NCBI GenBank assembly: GCA_016931115.1
Contig: JAFGFM010000002.1
Span: 1 to 59,254 of the forward strand
Direction: 5' to 3'
Origin: Deltaproteobacteria bacterium
GTDB lineage: Bacteria > Desulfobacterota > DSM-4660 > Desulfatiglandales > HGW-15
Length of the DNA stretch: 59,254 nt
Part shown: in pieces, positions 27,031 through 34,234 of the stretch
Layout: each line of letters begins with the position of its first letter
Position numbering within the stretch: position 1 is the first letter of the stretch
Notes under the pieces: generated by a model
What the model was told of the DNA's origin: nothing
What the model saw: only the letters and a program-made list of their open reading frames with translations
The model's database searches: none
Program-made: the position numbers and the translations under genes

Positions 27031-28008
27031 TTAAATATTTATTGAAAATGACCCCAGTTTTTTTATTACCTGCTCCATATCTTCTGGAACAGGGGCATGA
27101 AATTCCCTGTATTCACCTGAATCAGGGTGAGTAAAGGCGAGGTATGCTGAATGAAGCATCTGCCTTTTTATCAAATCCTGTATCTCTTCAGCAGGGAGGT
27201 TATTTTTTCTCCACCAGCTGTTTTTATAACCATAGACAGGGTCTCCCACAACCGGGTGTCCGATATGTGACATATGCACCCTGATCTGATGTGTTCTGCC
27301 TGTCTTTATTATTACAGATAATAATGCGAATTTCTCTGAAAGGGTCTTTTCTATGCGCCATTCTGTGATGGCCCTTTTCCCCTTTGAGGATACAGTCATC
27401 TCTTTTCTTTTTACCGGGTTGCGGGATATTGGCAGATCTATCCTGCCTTCATCTCTTTCTGGTATGCCATGAACCAGTGCAAAATACCTCTTATTAATCA
27501 AACCGTTTTTAAACTGGCTTGATAAAAAATTATGGGCCATATCATTTTTTGCTACGACAAGCAGGCCAGAGGTGTCCCTGTCAAGACGGTGAACAATACC
27601 CGGCCTCATTATCCCCCCTATGCCTGAGAGATCATTACAGTGATGAAGCAGGCCATGAACAAGTGTTCCATCCCTGTGCCCTGGTGAAGGATGAATGACA
27701 AGCCCCGGGGGCTTGTCCAAAACAATAATGGATGAATCCTCATATATTATTGATAAATTGAGAGGCTCAGGGTTGAGCTGATACGGCAGTGAGGGCGGCA
27801 ATATAAGCTCAATTGAATCACCCGCCCTTAACCTGTAACTGGTTTTTACATGACTGTTATTTACCTTTATATTGCCATCCCTGATAAGAGCCTGGATCCT
27901 TGACCTTGTCAGGTCATGATTTTTGGCGGATAAAAAGGAGTCAATACGTAAATCAATATCTGCTGTTTCAGCCTGAAAGGAGCATTTTCTTTCCTGTGCA
28001 TTTTCCAC
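27031..28008 (-). CDS. rluD: Ribosomal large subunit pseudouridine synthase of RluD type
   Basis: The 325-residue protein has an N-terminal S4 RNA-binding domain ('IDSFLSAKNHDLTRSRIQALIRDGNIKVN', cut here for length, near 22-55) and the RluA/RluD catalytic domain with 'GIVHRLDRDTSGLLVVAKND', where the aspartate of HRLDRDT is the catalytic residue. A 'GRTHQIRVHMSHIGHPVVGD' motif follows. RluD makes pseudouridines in helix 69 of 23S rRNA; the close relatives RluC and RluA share this layout, so the exact site is inferred. Confidence 0.88.
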   Translation of the reverse strand: MENAQERKCSFQAETADIDLRIDSFLSAKNHDLTRSRIQALIRDGNIKVNNSHVKTSYRLRAGDSIELILPPSLPYQLNPEPLNLSIIYEDSSIIVLDKPPGLVIHPSPGHRDGTLVHGLLHHCNDLSGIGGIMRPGIVHRLDRDTSGLLVVAKNDMAHNFLSSQFKNGLINKRYFALVHGIPERDEGRIDLPISRNPVKRKEMTVSSKGKRAITEWRIEKTLSEKFALLSVIIKTGRTHQIRVHMSHIGHPVVGDPVYGYKNSWWRKNNLPAEEIQDLIKRQMLHSAYLAFTHPDSGEYREFHAPVPEDMEQVIKKLGSFSINI

Positions 28009-28113: not shown

Positions 28114-28623
28114 TTATACAATGGGAGCCGGTGCTGATGTTGCCGGAAACATCTTGTCCAGATCCTTTTCTATCTGTTTTTCTGCGACCTTTTTTGCAAG
28201 GGATATCTCTTTTACCAAAAGACTCCTTGCCGTATCAAGCATCTTTCTCTCGCCGAATGAGAGATCCTTTTCTTCTTTCAGCATAAGCAGGTCACGGTAA
28301 ACCTCTGCCACCTCAAAGACTGAACCGGTCTTTATCTTATCCATATATTCTCGATACCTGCGGTTCCATGTCTGGTTATCGATCACCATATCCCTTTTTT
28401 TCAGGATAGAATATAGTTTGGGGATCTCCTTTTGCCCTATTATTTCCCTTAAACCGACATTGTCCACATTACGTGTAGGGACCATTATTTTCATATTATT
28501 ATCAAGAATTCTGATAGTATAAAAATCCTGTCTGCATCCTGAAATTTCCTTGGTCTCAATTGTCTCTATTATGCCAACTCCATGTGCAGGGTATACTGCC
28601 AAATCACCTTCTTTAAACATCAA
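28114..28623 (-). CDS. CarD-family transcription regulator
   Basis: CarD-like proteins bind the RNA polymerase beta subunit and stabilise open complexes. The 169-residue protein starts with the Tudor-like RNAP-interaction domain ('FKEGDLAVYPAHGVGIIETIE', 'FYTIRILDNNMKIMVPTRNV') and ends with a helical DNA-binding domain ('EYMDKIKTGSVFEVAEVYRDLLML', 'LSFGERKMLDTARSLL'). The alanine/proline-rich tail is short. In Desulfobacterota several CarD-like paralogues can occur; this one stands between rluD and the pyrophosphatase-like gene. Confidence 0.88.
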   Translation of the reverse strand: MMFKEGDLAVYPAHGVGIIETIETKEISGCRQDFYTIRILDNNMKIMVPTRNVDNVGLREIIGQKEIPKLYSILKKRDMVIDNQTWNRRYREYMDKIKTGSVFEVAEVYRDLLMLKEEKDLSFGERKMLDTARSLLVKEISLAKKVAEKQIEKDLDKMFPATSAPAPIV

Positions 28624-28841
28624 TTACTCCATGTTAGGCTAATTATTTATCAATTATGCTAATCCATTAAGCACGGCAATTACAAAATTTATCCTTCATA
28701 TCATATATTTAGCAGATTGTCGAGTTTAGATTTCAGAAAAGACGATAATATATTAAGCGTGACTGTTGCAGCCATAATTACCTGTATTCTTCCTTAAACC
28801 ATTCGATCCGGGTGGGAATTTTGGCCAATTGTTAATAGTTG

Positions 28842-30929
28842 TCACTGGAACAGGCCTGCCACTGGAAGTATCGGGGCCATAACAAGTGAAACAACTGACA
28901 TGAATTTTATAAGTATATTGATAGCCGGGGCAGAGGTATCCCTGAATATACTGCCTACAGTAAACCCGACTATTGCCGCTTTATGATTGTCTGTCCCTTT
29001 TCCTCCGATCTTGCCTGTTTCTATATATTTTTTTGCATTTTCCAATGCCCCTCCGGTATTTAACATGAAAATAGAGAGGAGGGTCCCCATTACGATTGAG
29101 CCGATAAGTGTGCCGCCAAGTGCTAAAGGACCGAGTATAAATCCTACTGCTACAGGTGTTATTATGGCTACCAAACCGGGCGCCAGCATCTCTCTCAGGG
29201 CTGAGGCGGCGGTTAGTGTGACACATATTTGACCTTCTCCCTTTACCCCTATTTTACCTTCAAGCAGACCCGGGATTTCCATGAACTGGCGTCTGATCTC
29301 TTTAACCACAGGCAATGCGACCCTGCCAGTGGATGTTATTGTGAGCGCTGTCCATATGATCGGCACCAGTGCGCCAATAAATATCCCTGTAAAAACAGCG
29401 GGTGTTTTAATGTCAAATATAAACTCTGCCATTGTTGGGTGGGCCACCTGTATTGAGCGTGTAAAGGCAGCAAAAAGGGCAAGGGCAGTTAGTGTTGCTG
29501 AACATGTTGTAAAAACCATCCCTTCAGATGATGTTGTCTTTCCGTGGGCCTCAAGGTGTTCGGTAATATTAATGGTTTCAGGGTCAAGCCCTGCCATTTC
29601 AGACAAGCCATGAGCATTGTCAGCTATCGGGCTAAAGCTGTATACTGTCATAGTGATACCTGTGGTGGCGATCATTCCGACAGCAGAGAGGGCTATGCCG
29701 TATGCCCCTGAGGCCATGTATCCTGAAAATGTGGCGGCACAGATACTTAATAAAGGGACATATGCCCACAGCATACCTGTTGCCAGACCCGCTATTATCA
29801 CTGATGCTGAACCTGTTTTACTTTGCCCTGCAATATAGCTGGCCTGATCTCCTGAGGTGTAATACCCGGCTGAGAGCCCTGTTATTATACCGCAAGCCAA
29901 TCCGGAAAAGAGTGCCCAGAAAGCACCAAAAGGCATCCTGAAAACTGCTGTTATGAGAGCTGTTATAATAACAAATATTCCTGCTGCAAAAAATATCATA
30001 TATCTTCGTAACAATGCCTTATTTGTATTTTTGAAGACTTTTATGGAAAATAGGCCTGCAATTGAACTCAAAAGACCTGCTATAACTATCAGTACCGGCA
30101 TTGCCATATATTTGAGTCTGATAGCCGCTATAGCCTCTTCTTTAACTAAAGGTTCGAGATGAGGGAACCGTGCGATTAGATCCGGAGAGACTGCAAGGGT
30201 GGCACCGATAGTAATGGCGGCAATTATTGAAGATGTAAATGATTCAAATATATCAGCCCCCATTCCAGCGATATTACCAACACTGTTTCCGACAATGCCG
30301 GCAATAACCCCGGGGTTTCTCGGGTTATCACAGGGGATGCCTGCCTCGACCCTGCATGCGATATCAGTGCCAGAGGTCGCTGCCCTTGCAAATATTCCCC
30401 CGCTTAAGCGGGCAAAGATGGCGGCTGAGCTTGCACCCAGAGCAAACCCGGTGACACAGTTGATTTGCTTTGGGTCACTGCCATATATGAAAAACCATAT
30501 ACCTGTCCCCAGGAGTCCAAGGCCAGCGATTGCAAGTGCCATTACTGACCCTGTAAAATATGCAGTATTTAGGGCCTTTAAATGCCCGGATCTGTTTGCG
30601 GCCTCGGCTACTCTTGAGTTTCCCCTTGTGGTGGCTGTCATGCCTGAATAACAGGCCGTTATTGAGCATAATGCCCCTGACACAAAGGCAACAGATATCT
30701 GCCAGCACGGCAGGATAAGCCAGAGGATAATAAATAAAACAGCAATAAAAACTGCGAATATGGAGTATTCCTTTATCAGGAATGCCATAACCCCTTCATG
30801 GATCATCTCTTCCAGTTCCTGTATCCTGTTATTCCCTTTTGGCTGTTTTTTGACATAGGCGTATATGAACCATGCTATTATCAGGCTTATAATACCAAAG
30901 AACGGGGCTAAGCTGGTTAAACCCTGCAT
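28842..30929 (-). CDS. Membrane pyrophosphatase homologue lacking most catalytic residues
   Basis: The 695-residue protein aligns along its whole length with H+/Na+-translocating pyrophosphatases: the same multi-helix layout, 'RVAEAANRSG', 'GGIFARAA', 'EAGIPCDNPRNPGVIA', 'AGMGADIFES', 'SPIADNAHGLSEMAGL', 'NAKKYIETGKIGGKG' and 'DTSAPAINILIK'. But the PPi/Mg ligands are changed. Compared with the usual KAADVGADLVGKVEAG block: K to R182, D to T185, K to R193. In [20 protein letters not shown]: D to N202, D to G211, D to N215, D to N219. Further: D to Y430, N to K464, K to M471. In GDTVGDPFKDT: D to F656, D to S660, K to R663. D189, E195, D201, D437 and D664 remain. The frame is intact and starts inside pth with GGAGGG upstream, so it is probably expressed. 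Hydrolysis seems unlikely; its function is unknown. Confidence 0.88.
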   Translation of the reverse strand: MQGLTSLAPFFGIISLIIAWFIYAYVKKQPKGNNRIQELEEMIHEGVMAFLIKEYSIFAVFIAVLFIILWLILPCWQISVAFVSGALCSITACYSGMTATTRGNSRVAEAANRSGHLKALNTAYFTGSVMALAIAGLGLLGTGIWFFIYGSDPKQINCVTGFALGASSAAIFARLSGGIFARAATSGTDIACRVEAGIPCDNPRNPGVIAGIVGNSVGNIAGMGADIFESFTSSIIAAITIGATLAVSPDLIARFPHLEPLVKEEAIAAIRLKYMAMPVLIVIAGLLSSIAGLFSIKVFKNTNKALLRRYMIFFAAGIFVIITALITAVFRMPFGAFWALFSGLACGIITGLSAGYYTSGDQASYIAGQSKTGSASVIIAGLATGMLWAYVPLLSICAATFSGYMASGAYGIALSAVGMIATTGITMTVYSFSPIADNAHGLSEMAGLDPETINITEHLEAHGKTTSSEGMVFTTCSATLTALALFAAFTRSIQVAHPTMAEFIFDIKTPAVFTGIFIGALVPIIWTALTITSTGRVALPVVKEIRRQFMEIPGLLEGKIGVKGEGQICVTLTAASALREMLAPGLVAIITPVAVGFILGPLALGGTLIGSIVMGTLLSIFMLNTGGALENAKKYIETGKIGGKGTDNHKAAIVGFTVGSIFRDTSAPAINILIKFMSVVSLVMAPILPVAGLFQ

Positions 30930-31530: not shown

Positions 31531-32181
31531 TTATTTTTTTTCAGCCTCTTTTGCCTTTGCCTCTTCACCCTCTTTACCCTCTTCACCCTCTTCACCATGT
31601 GCGCCTTTCTCTGCTGCAGACGGGGCATTTACGACCGCTACTGTGAGATGATCCTCCTGATTAGAGGTAACTCCCTCAGGGAAAATAACATCACGGACAT
31701 GTAATGAGTCACCTATGCCAAGGCCTGAGACGTCGATCTCTATCTTTTCTACCACCTTGTCAGGCAGACACTTAATGGAAAGTTCACGTCTTACCATCTG
31801 AAGAACTCCACCAAGCGCGGCCCCTGCAGGCGTATTTATAAGTACAACAGGGACATTGAGTGTAAGTTCCTTGTTCATTGAAATCTCGAGAAAATCTGCA
31901 TGGATATATGAATCCTTCAGCGGGTCTGATTGCAGCTCTTTTAAAATAACCAGTTTGGAGTCAGTGCCTTTACCGGTCTCTATCTGAAGCTTCATGATAA
32001 TGTTTTTACTGGCAGCACTTTTCAATATCCTGCGAAGCTCGCCGTCCTTAAAACTGACCATAACAGGCTTGGAGTCTGCCCCGTAAAAAATGCCCGGTAT
32101 ATCCATTTGTTGTCTCATCTTTTTAGCTGCCTCTTTACCCTTGGTATCCCTTACCTTTACAGCTAACTGGTATTGTTCCAT
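31531..32181 (-). CDS. rplY: 50S ribosomal protein L25/general stress protein Ctc
   Basis: L25 of the long Ctc form binds 5S rRNA. The 216-residue protein has the N-terminal L25 domain ('VRDTKGKEAAKKMRQQMDIPG', then 'DPLKDSYIHADFLEISMNKE') and the C-terminal TL5 beta domain ('IEIDVSGLGIGDSLHVRDV'). The tail is a low-complexity Glu/Gly/Lys run (EEGEEGKEGEEAKAKEAEKK), common in this group. It lies between prs and pth. Confidence 0.95.
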   Translation of the reverse strand: MEQYQLAVKVRDTKGKEAAKKMRQQMDIPGIFYGADSKPVMVSFKDGELRRILKSAASKNIIMKLQIETGKGTDSKLVILKELQSDPLKDSYIHADFLEISMNKELTLNVPVVLINTPAGAALGGVLQMVRRELSIKCLPDKVVEKIEIDVSGLGIGDSLHVRDVIFPEGVTSNQEDHLTVAVVNAPSAAEKGAHGEEGEEGKEGEEAKAKEAEKK

Positions 32182-32300: not shown

Positions 32301-33230
32301 TTATACAAACAAAGTACTTACTGAGTGTGAATAGTATATCCTTCTTATTGCCTCTCCGATCAACTCAGCTACTGACAGCGCCACGATCTTTGAACATTTT
32401 TCAGATGCCTCGCTCAGAGGGATAGTGTTTGTGACCACAAGCTGATTTATCTCTGAATTTCCAAGCCTTTCAATTGCCGGCCCTGAAAGAACAGGGTGTG
32501 TACAGCATGCGAAGATCTCTTTTGTCCCCCTTTTTTTAAGTGCGGCAGCTCCCTGCACCAGGGTGCCTGCTGTGTCAACCATGTCATCAAGTATAATAGC
32601 TGTTTTACCATCAACCTCACCGATTATATTCATTGCCTCTGAAACATTCGGGGCATCTCTTCTTTTATCTATTATGGCTAGCGAAGCTGAGAGACGTTTT
32701 GCAAATGCCCTGGCCCTTTCCACACCGCCAGCGTCAGGTGAAACAATGACAAGATTGTCATAAAAATGGTTTTTCATATATTTAATAAGCAGCGGTGCCG
32801 CAAACAGGTTGTCAACAGGGATATTAAAATAGCCCTGTATCTGCCCTGCATGAAGATCAAGGGATATAACACGGTCTGCCCCGGCGGTTGTAATAAGGTC
32901 AGCAACAAGTTTTGCAGATATGGGCACCCTCGGTTTTACCTTTCGGTCCTGACGTCCATAACCGTAATAGGGGATTACAGCTGTTATACGTTTTGCAGAT
33001 GCCCTTTTAAGTGCATCCATTATTATAAGCAGCTGCATCAGGTTATCATTCACAGGTGTGCAGGTTGACTGAATTACAAATACATCCCTGTTCCTGATGT
33101 TTTCATGGATCTCTATCTGTGTTTCGCCGTCGCTGAATGTCTTTGCTGTAATTTTACCGGGTTCTATGCCCAGGTAATTACATACCTCCTGAGTCAATAC
33201 CGGATTTGATGTTCCACCGAATACCTTCAT
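32301..33230 (-). CDS. prs: Ribose-phosphate pyrophosphokinase
   Basis: Prs makes PRPP from ribose 5-phosphate and ATP for purine, pyrimidine, histidine and tryptophan synthesis. From the ATG at 33230 (309 residues) the protein starts 'MKVFGGTSNPVLTQE'. It has 'RDVFVIQSTCTPVNDNLMQL', 'IPYYGYGRQDRK' (ATP loop), 'RVISLDLHAGQIQGYF' and the PRPP loop 'IILDDMVDTAGTLVQGA'. The frame continues upstream into the tRNA-Gln gene, but that part is not coding. Order ispE, tRNA-Gln, prs, rplY, pth. Confidence 0.96.
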   Translation of the reverse strand: MKVFGGTSNPVLTQEVCNYLGIEPGKITAKTFSDGETQIEIHENIRNRDVFVIQSTCTPVNDNLMQLLIIMDALKRASAKRITAVIPYYGYGRQDRKVKPRVPISAKLVADLITTAGADRVISLDLHAGQIQGYFNIPVDNLFAAPLLIKYMKNHFYDNLVIVSPDAGGVERARAFAKRLSASLAIIDKRRDAPNVSEAMNIIGEVDGKTAIILDDMVDTAGTLVQGAAALKKRGTKEIFACCTHPVLSGPAIERLGNSEINQLVVTNTIPLSEASEKCSKIVALSVAELIGEAIRRIYYSHSVSTLFV

Positions 33231-33277
33231 GATAATCTGCAATACTCCCTTTAAATAAGATAAATTCCTGCTATCAA

Positions 33278-33352
33278 TGGCTGGGGTGGGAGGATTCGAA
33301 CCTCCGAATGCGGACTCCAAAGGCCCGTGTCTTACCGCTTGACGACACCCCA
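33278..33352 (-). tRNA. tRNA-Gln (anticodon UUG)
   Basis: On the minus strand a 75-base tRNA reads from TGGGGTG to the encoded CCA. The acceptor stem TGGGGTG/CACCCCA, an anticodon arm with stem CGGGC/GTCCG and loop CTTTGGA (anticodon TTG), and the T loop GGTTCGAATCC are all present. Discriminator base is G. It sits between ispE and prs. Confidence 0.96.
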
Positions 33353-33361
33353 ATACAATCA

Positions 33362-34234
33362 TCAGACAGCTTTTTTTAAAAATCCCCTTGCCACGCTTAT
33401 ATGCCTCAGATCATCGGATGCAAACAGATCCATGGCCGCAACCGCCTTTTCACGGGATTTAAACACACCAAAAACAGATGGCCCGCTGCCCGACATCATG
33501 GCCCCTTCAGCACCTGCATCCATTATTCTTCTTTTAAGAGCAGAAATAAGAGGAAAGCTTCTACAGGTAACCTTTTCGAGGTCGTTTTTTAATATATCTT
33601 TGATGACAATATCACCATTTTTTAAACTTTTTCTTATATAGTCATATTCATTTGATGTCAACTCCATTTTATAGTTCTGGTAAACCCATGCAGTTGATAT
33701 CTCAACCCGGGGGGTGATTAGCAGATACCAGAATTGAGGCCAGTTATCGATCGGCTCAAGTATTTCACCTATGCCTGTGGCAATGGATGGCTCTGCTCTG
33801 ATAAAAAAGGGTACATCCGCACCTAATGATAATGCAAGCTGAAGCAGGTCATTTTCACTTATTGGTAATGAATACAGTTCATTAAGTGCAAGAATGGTGG
33901 ATGCCGCATCACTGCTCCCCCCGCCAAGACCTGCAGCAACAGGGATCTTTTTATTTAATACGATTTCTACCCCGTTTTTTTCAATTTTTGCCCTGTTAAA
34001 AAAAAGTTTTGCGGCCCTGTAAACAAGGTTTGAAGGGTCATCAGGGACCAAAAAACCTGAGCTTTTAAGTGATATTTGCCCCGAGTCATTGATTTTTATA
34101 TGAATATGATCAAACAGCTCAACCGGTATCATTATTGAAAAGAGGTCATGATATCCGTCACCCCTTTTACCTGTTATTTCAAGACGTGCATTGATCTTGG
34201 CAGGGGCCTTTATGCTGATCGATTTATCCACCAA
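33362..34234 (-). CDS. ispE: 4-diphosphocytidyl-2-C-methyl-D-erythritol kinase
   Basis: IspE phosphorylates CDP-methylerythritol in the MEP isoprenoid pathway. The 290-residue GHMP kinase starts 'SISIKAPAKINARLEITGKR', has the ATP-binding 'PVAAGLGGGSSDAASTILAL' near 95, and the C-terminal 'GAMMSGSGPSVFGVF' motif. dxr of the same pathway is at 51093, and uppS, which uses its products, is at 48548. It is separated from the upstream DUF1844 gene by a terminator. Confidence 0.95.
   Translation of the reverse strand: MVDKSISIKAPAKINARLEITGKRGDGYHDLFSIMIPVELFDHIHIKINDSGQISLKSSGFLVPDDPSNLVYRAAKLFFNRAKIEKNGVEIVLNKKIPVAAGLGGGSSDAASTILALNELYSLPISENDLLQLALSLGADVPFFIRAEPSIATGIGEILEPIDNWPQFWYLLITPRVEISTAWVYQNYKMELTSNEYDYIRKSLKNGDIVIKDILKNDLEKVTCRSFPLISALKRRIMDAGAEGAMMSGSGPSVFGVFKSREKAVAAMDLFASDDLRHISVARGFLKKAV

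Follow-up and report, generated by a model that had tools for sequence, protein, structure and literature searches.

A degenerate membrane pyrophosphatase homolog under purifying selection in a genus of Desulfatiglandales

Results

The window (the whole stretch of DNA analyzed, 59,254 nucleotides of contig JAFGFM010000002.1 in GenBank assembly GCA_016931115.1, from a member of the Deltaproteobacteria) contained an open reading frame (ORF) of 695 amino acids at positions 28842 to 30929 of the minus strand, with no internal stops. Based on the ORF list, a PF03030 profile, and alignments, it was annotated as a degenerate homolog of the membrane pyrophosphatases (M-PPases) with altered catalytic motifs. 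The neighboring genes lie on the same strand. Directly upstream is pth (peptidyl-tRNA hydrolase; PF01195; 30917 to 31519), which shares 13 nt with the beginning of the M-PPase gene and is the upstream neighbor in most relatives too; a GGAGG motif precedes the M-PPase start here and in the other of the two genomes of the genus analyzed (the congener). Beyond pth lie rplY (ribosomal protein L25/TL5; 31531 to 32181), a conserved neighbor, and prs (ribose-phosphate pyrophosphokinase; 32301 to 33362), both checked for family. On the other side, a spacer of 218 bp (28624 to 28841), in which a consensus scan found no terminator-like site, leads to a carD-like gene with CarD domains (28114 to 28623), the downstream neighbor in most relatives of the order, and then to an rluD-like pseudouridine synthase gene (27031 to 28008), also a conserved neighbor checked for family.

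The predicted protein was covered by PF03030 from residue 13 to 684 (618 bits), and its alignment to TmPPase was nearly full length (residues 12 to 689); that to VrPPase spanned residues 79 to 691, with a weak N-terminal piece in addition. An AF2 model (pLDDT, 85.8) had the canonical fold and superposed on TmPPase at 2.0 Å over 670 residues (Z, 53.1), although the AF2 run had canonical rows in its alignment and the fold is no test of function. Matches to 12 of 13 NCBIfam models were below their cutoffs, with NF001960 (“sodium-translocating pyrophosphatase”) above. The gene order rplY-pth-hppA-carD-rluD in relatives is that of the window, and the gene is a syntenic ortholog of ordinary M-PPases. 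Among 30 canonical relatives aligned, pth adjoined hppA in 28; the exceptions were L031, which begins at a contig edge, and L014 (genome G006), without pth in the 9 kb read. By profile, fold, and synteny, the window protein is a member of the M-PPase family by descent, and the original prediction of a full-length family protein was borne out. As a separate observation, the order-type canonical hppA of G006 (L201:138-2198) also lacked rplY and carD in the 9 kb read and seems to have moved.

The original prediction also held that catalytic residues were replaced in every motif. All 12 substitutions that it listed were found relative to aligned canonical orthologs (K to R182, D to T185, K to R193, D to N202, D to G211, D to N215, D to N219, D to Y430, N to K464, K to M471, D to F656, and D to S660), as were three others (E200C, D630E, and K663R); the wording was too broad, as D189 (5.65), D201 (5.77), D437 (11.57), K633 (15.64), and D664 (16.39) are kept. 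Helix numbering follows passages of PMC10897367, PMC5150537, and PMC6882861, with labels 11.50, 5.69, 12.43, and 15.65 being our own offsets. In total, 5 of 19 active-site residues were kept and 14 changed, compared with 19 of 19 kept in the six canonical proteins tabulated alongside. Loss was heavier in the active site (5/19 kept) than in the remaining invariant columns (259/348 kept; P = 2.9e-5). The motifs aligned to those of relatives without gaps, so no catalytic residues are hidden behind an indel, and displacement of this kind, which the original prediction had named as a possible refutation, was ruled out.

By the active-site list in the consulted part of PMC6882861, 4 of 12 acids were identical, a fifth was D to E, and all three lysines were still basic; in our own set, 4 of 12 acids stayed acidic and five of six lysine positions stayed basic. 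The basic positions are K182R, K193R, K633, K634, and K663R, and N464 has become a lysine, all likewise in the congener. The hydrolytic center of conserved Asp, Lys, Asn, and Glu residues that marks a functional Mg-PPi hydrolase or pump was not found in the window protein, and we infer from these residues that the protein neither hydrolyzes PPi nor pumps with it. It is highly improbable that the protein still works as a pyrophosphatase by means of an unusual site: 5 of the 19 active-site residues and, in addition, D201 remain, but all three TM6 aspartates (D211, D215, and D219), K12.50, D5.61, D16.31, and D16.35 are replaced.

The copy in the congener (L004) was 79% identical to the window protein and had the same catalytic loss. 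An ortholog next to pth sharing the loss, one of the signs by which the original prediction was to be judged, was thus present; the next-best identity among the first 61 genomes was 62%. The 30 canonical relatives had 373 invariant columns, of which 249 were retained in both the window protein and L004, 64 had been replaced identically in the two, 23 were changed differently, 16 were changed in the window protein only, and 21 were changed in L004 only. Five of the 16 invariant aspartates were retained in both proteins. In two trees, the two proteins formed a single clade (support, 100/100) on a stem of 1.04 or 0.71 changes per site, with tips in the surrounding canonical clade mostly at about 0.1 changes per site. 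Assembly error or a chimera is unlikely, because two separate genomes share the gene in conserved synteny.

Because the key substitutions are common to both congeners, the loss predates their split, and their pairwise divergence records the evolution of a catalytically dead protein. The NG86 omega of this pair was 0.226 (bootstrap, 0.176 to 0.282), similar to that of pth (0.215), and that of the intact M-PPase paralog in the same two genomes was 0.041 (0.026 to 0.061). Codon maximum likelihood (three classes, 10 sequences) gave an omega of 0.263 for the tips versus a background of 0.0515, with both omega = 1 (2ΔlnL = 126.9) and equality with the background (2ΔlnL = 138.1) rejected. The stem omega (0.086) was set aside, as the estimate of stem length had reached its bound. 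The degenerate pair had no indels in 2,088 aligned bases; six spacers in the same two genomes, the 218-bp spacer among them, had 14 gap runs in 1,459 aligned bases. Under neutral simulation, each lineage gained about 14 stops (never fewer than 5), compared with none observed. A neutral pseudogene was thereby ruled out for this genus by an omega of 0.23 to 0.26 and by the lack of stops and indels. The window gene is under purifying selection that is relaxed compared with that on a working pump and far from neutral. The original prediction had excluded a pseudogene from the intact, translationally coupled frame; that argument is weak alone, and its conclusion stands through dN/dS and the absence of indels. 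Nor did high dN/dS coincide with substitutions confined to one genome, the combination that would have spoken against it.

In the window protein, the Na+-type gate residues R174, D226, E229, S230, N671, and K675 were present, and all six gate positions (R5.50, D6.50, E6.53, S6.54, N16.46, and K16.50, as listed in passages of PMC5150537 and PMC10897367) were kept in both congeners, giving a gate of the Na+ type. The gate was not conserved preferentially over other invariant columns (P = 0.34), so its retention is no proof that it functions. Pooled over degenerate copies, 19 of 24 gate positions versus 26 of 76 active-site positions were kept (P = 1.4e-4), a comparison of related rows and chosen sites with L111 left out. 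TM12 was among the fastest-changing regions (0.36) and TM13 was also fast; TM6 (0.13) and TM16 (0.12) were among the slower ones, and TM1, TM9, and loop 6-7 were slower still. Loop 6-7 had 1 change in 22, a post hoc observation from which no unusual conservation is claimed. Loops 5-6 and 13-14 were largely retained.

The window genome contained two PF03030 genes. The second, on another contig and unlinked, was intact (19 of 19 active-site and 6 of 6 gate residues), so that a second intact hppA, for which the original prediction had proposed a search, was present; the same copy was found in the congener. No soluble pyrophosphatase of family I (PF00719) or II (PF02833) was detected in the window genome, and the second M-PPase therefore presumably carries out the genome's PPi hydrolysis. 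The loss of catalytic residues, purifying selection, and this intact second hppA together agree with the original suggestion of a likely pseudoenzyme. Since both proteins coexist in both genomes, and M-PPases form dimers whose subunits influence each other (PMC10897367), the window protein could be a regulatory subunit that dimerizes with the second M-PPase and tunes it. We regard this as quite unlikely, as the paralogs are only 39.5% identical, the second copy lies elsewhere in the family tree, and the dimer interface includes TM13, one of the faster-changing helices. After the intact second hppA (L001:3215-4210) lies a gene for a 331-amino-acid protein that by eye resembles a cyclic-nucleotide/PilZ-like regulator.

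Within the order, 79 of 85 genomes had an M-PPase match and 6 had none. Catalytic positions were seen in 76 of these genomes (the 30 canonical relatives, 43 more, some of them cut by contig ends and some carrying another M-PPase class, the window genome, the congener, and G015); they were complete where covered in 73, mostly lost in two, and partly degenerate in one (G015). This last genome, of the same family and another genus, carried a pth-linked copy (L155:5514-6941) with D5.65V, K5.69R, E5.76Q, and D11.57G, judged on 16 of 25 positions because of a contig edge, together with an intact divergent M-PPase. G008, G047, and G056 had only short pieces of the pth-linked type.

Other variants in these genomes were also recorded. 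A divergent-class M-PPase lies between pth and carD in G056 (L035:454-3198), with a C-terminal piece of the pth-linked type behind it (42 amino acids, 62% identical), which looks like replacement in place. In G016, a copy placed on a long branch (L044:4586-6616; 0.53) had every catalytic residue and was without pth, carD, and rluD on the 6.9 kb read. Genus g48 (L071, L072, and L074) had GDCVGD in place of GDNVGD, with the other displayed motifs canonical. A threonine replaced gate S6.54 in L038 (G025) and gate lysine K16.50 in the pth-linked L188:1938-3902 (G076), which had 19 of 19 active-site residues; the frame of L188 ends early (654 amino acids), and the latter change may be an end effect. 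No relative was found among viral contigs with search patterns from one protein, and a scan of genome contigs with only two peptide patterns returned 23 loci, with a best identity of 61%, from a set that may omit the record of the window itself.

Across the phylum, PF03030 was detected in at least 234 of 297 genomes. The same 297 genomes were scanned with a motif pattern, and 8 genomes (7 without a motif match, plus G159) and 19 with more PF03030 genes than motif matches were followed. Degenerate copies were found in at least five of the 297: the two congeners (G000 and G001), G253 (L112, 3733-5712, 659 amino acids), G359 (L113, 5119-7098, 659 amino acids), and G102 (L111, 4872-6557, 561 amino acids, far eroded). 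Another, L116 (1-2457), was found outside this tally in G370, a relative of G253. All four copies from outside the window's order are pth linked and fall in two other families; L111, L112, and L113 directly follow prs-rplY-pth (pth and rplY by BLAST, prs by eye), and L116 follows the 3' part of a pth cut by the contig start. G102, G253, and G359 each had a further M-PPase, which belonged to a different class and was intact in the motifs displayed, and G370 had one with 19 of 19 active-site residues. Five degenerate proteins measured had 16 to 18 hydropathy segments and fewer acidic residues than canonical relatives.

Different residues were lost in different lineages. L116 has lost R5.50 and E6.53 and keeps one of six basic positions, L111 has lost all listed residues and keeps none of the six, and L113 keeps all six, with no heavier loss in its active site than in the remaining invariant columns (P = 0.64). 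Omega was 0.346 for the G253/G370 pair and 0.56 to 0.65 when L111 and L113 were compared with canonical genes, the range in canonical pairs being 0.07 to 0.25, with dS near saturation in several of these comparisons. The six degenerate copies require three changes on the tree, in which the long rows are unsurely placed. One loss followed by regains is formally possible; separate losses are the reading adopted because regaining the site is implausible. A stable inactive subfamily, as a single clade in many genomes, was not found, and the single conserved inactive branch raised in the original prediction was not supported: within the window's order, full loss is limited to one genus (two genomes) and partial loss to G015, and the similar losses in other families lie apart from it.

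The retained basic residues could also indicate an anion sensor, or a protein gated by anions, that would bind a phosphate-like ligand without metal after most of the Mg2+-binding acids had gone. The preponderance of basic over acidic positions, the new lysine at position 464, the retention of loops 5-6 and 13-14, and the six basic positions of L113 fit such a protein. We consider it unlikely, given the near absence of basic residues at these positions in L116 and L111, active-site positions 200, 211, 656, and 660 that differ between the window protein and its congener, and a pocket that is not specially conserved. The same four positions leave the original idea of a different ligand unsupported.

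Among 13 genomes in the order of G253, all five in which the search met an M-PPase of the other class had a pth-linked copy that was degenerate (G253, G370, and G102) or undetected (G371 and G372), and all eight without a match to that class had a canonical pth-linked copy (Fisher's exact test, P = 7.8e-4). This association rests on one protein query, also the basis for the two undetected copies, which met the other class weakly (E values, about 1e-8 to 1e-11), and it ignores kinship. Two genomes combined a second M-PPase with a canonical copy: pth linked in G003, and of the order type but away from pth in the 9 kb read in G006. Losses of different residues at the same locus look as if constraint had been lifted repeatedly once a second M-PPase had arrived, as far as can be read from sequence.

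Discussion

The explanation that we favor, with modest confidence, is that an ancestral pth-linked M-PPase of the Na+ type was displaced in this one genus by a second copy, lost hydrolysis, and persists as a nonhydrolytic membrane protein. The pth-linked M-PPase would have been the ancestral pump of the order; a second, unlinked, and intact M-PPase, which we infer came first, would have taken over the enzymatic role; and the displaced copy would then have lost Mg-PPi binding and hydrolysis and have persisted under purifying selection. Selection may act on the membrane half, made up of 16 helices that include the Na+ gate. Uncoupled from PPi, this half might offer Na+/H+ a path that is slow or gated in another way, or it might be closed and act as a structural partner. 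Against this explanation, the gate is not specially kept, TM12 and TM13 change fast, other lineages drift further, and loss has not followed in every genome with a second M-PPase.

The main rival is a functionless relic in slow decay, the frame and fold of which are kept for a while only by harmlessness to the membrane or operon; overall, this seems the less probable account, though a substantial one. The states can be arranged in a series that begins with the partial loss in G015, runs over the window's genus, G253/G370, G359, and G102, and ends with the undetected copies of G371 and G372, and both the differing residues lost per lineage and the raised omega values of G253/G370, L111, and L113 accord with decay. 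In the window's genus, however, omega after inactivation is 0.23 to 0.26, with neither stops nor indels, where a relic should approach 1, and a premature stop would have achieved harmlessness at less cost. The relic suits the more eroded lineages better than it does the window's genus.

Returning to the favored explanation, cases in other families make it likely that displacement and then destruction of the catalytic site is the general route. More tentatively, pth-linked M-PPases, once a second pump has freed them, may repeatedly shed the PPi engine and survive as separate ion-gate proteins, each becoming a PPi-independent Na+/H+ conduit (passive or gated in another way) or an anion-responsive membrane protein. 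Studies of M-PPases treat them as simple primary ion pumps, and degenerate members would reveal how evolution displaces a pump and what it leaves behind. Whether hydrolysis or pumping comes first is still debated (PMC10897367). Degenerate copies have lost the engine but keep the fold and, in this genus, the gate residues, and are therefore ready-made test objects for the gate half alone. If true, the reading in which only the gate still works would give the family a new type of function, which we put forward as speculation. Since the window protein scored above the NF001960 cutoff, degenerate copies may be hidden in databases, automatically annotated as pumps.

Among the closest known systems is the K+-dependent Na+-pumping M-PPase of the TmPPase type (PF03030; TCDB 3.A.10). 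The window protein resembles it in full-length homology, fold, gate residues D6.50, E6.53, S6.54, N16.46, and K16.50, and G12.49, and differs in the 14 changed active-site positions and in A12.46, which is a serine. The evolutionarily divergent Na+-regulated H+-PPases, reported by Luoto et al. in 2015, are said to be active pumps; the window protein is likewise a far-off family member by sequence, without, as far as we can judge, such activity. A class of about 25% identity (L033, L034, and L035) keeps the displayed aspartate motifs, and no tie to that published group is claimed. In the open literature, with subscription papers mostly outside the scope of the search, no described case of an inactive M-PPase was found. 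Seven M-PPase subfamilies, classed by the ion pumped and by the effects of K+ or Na+, share family and gate architecture with the window protein, and the part of PMC6882861 consulted names no inactive subfamily among them. The window protein also resembles pseudoenzymes in general in having a family fold under selection without the catalytic residues.
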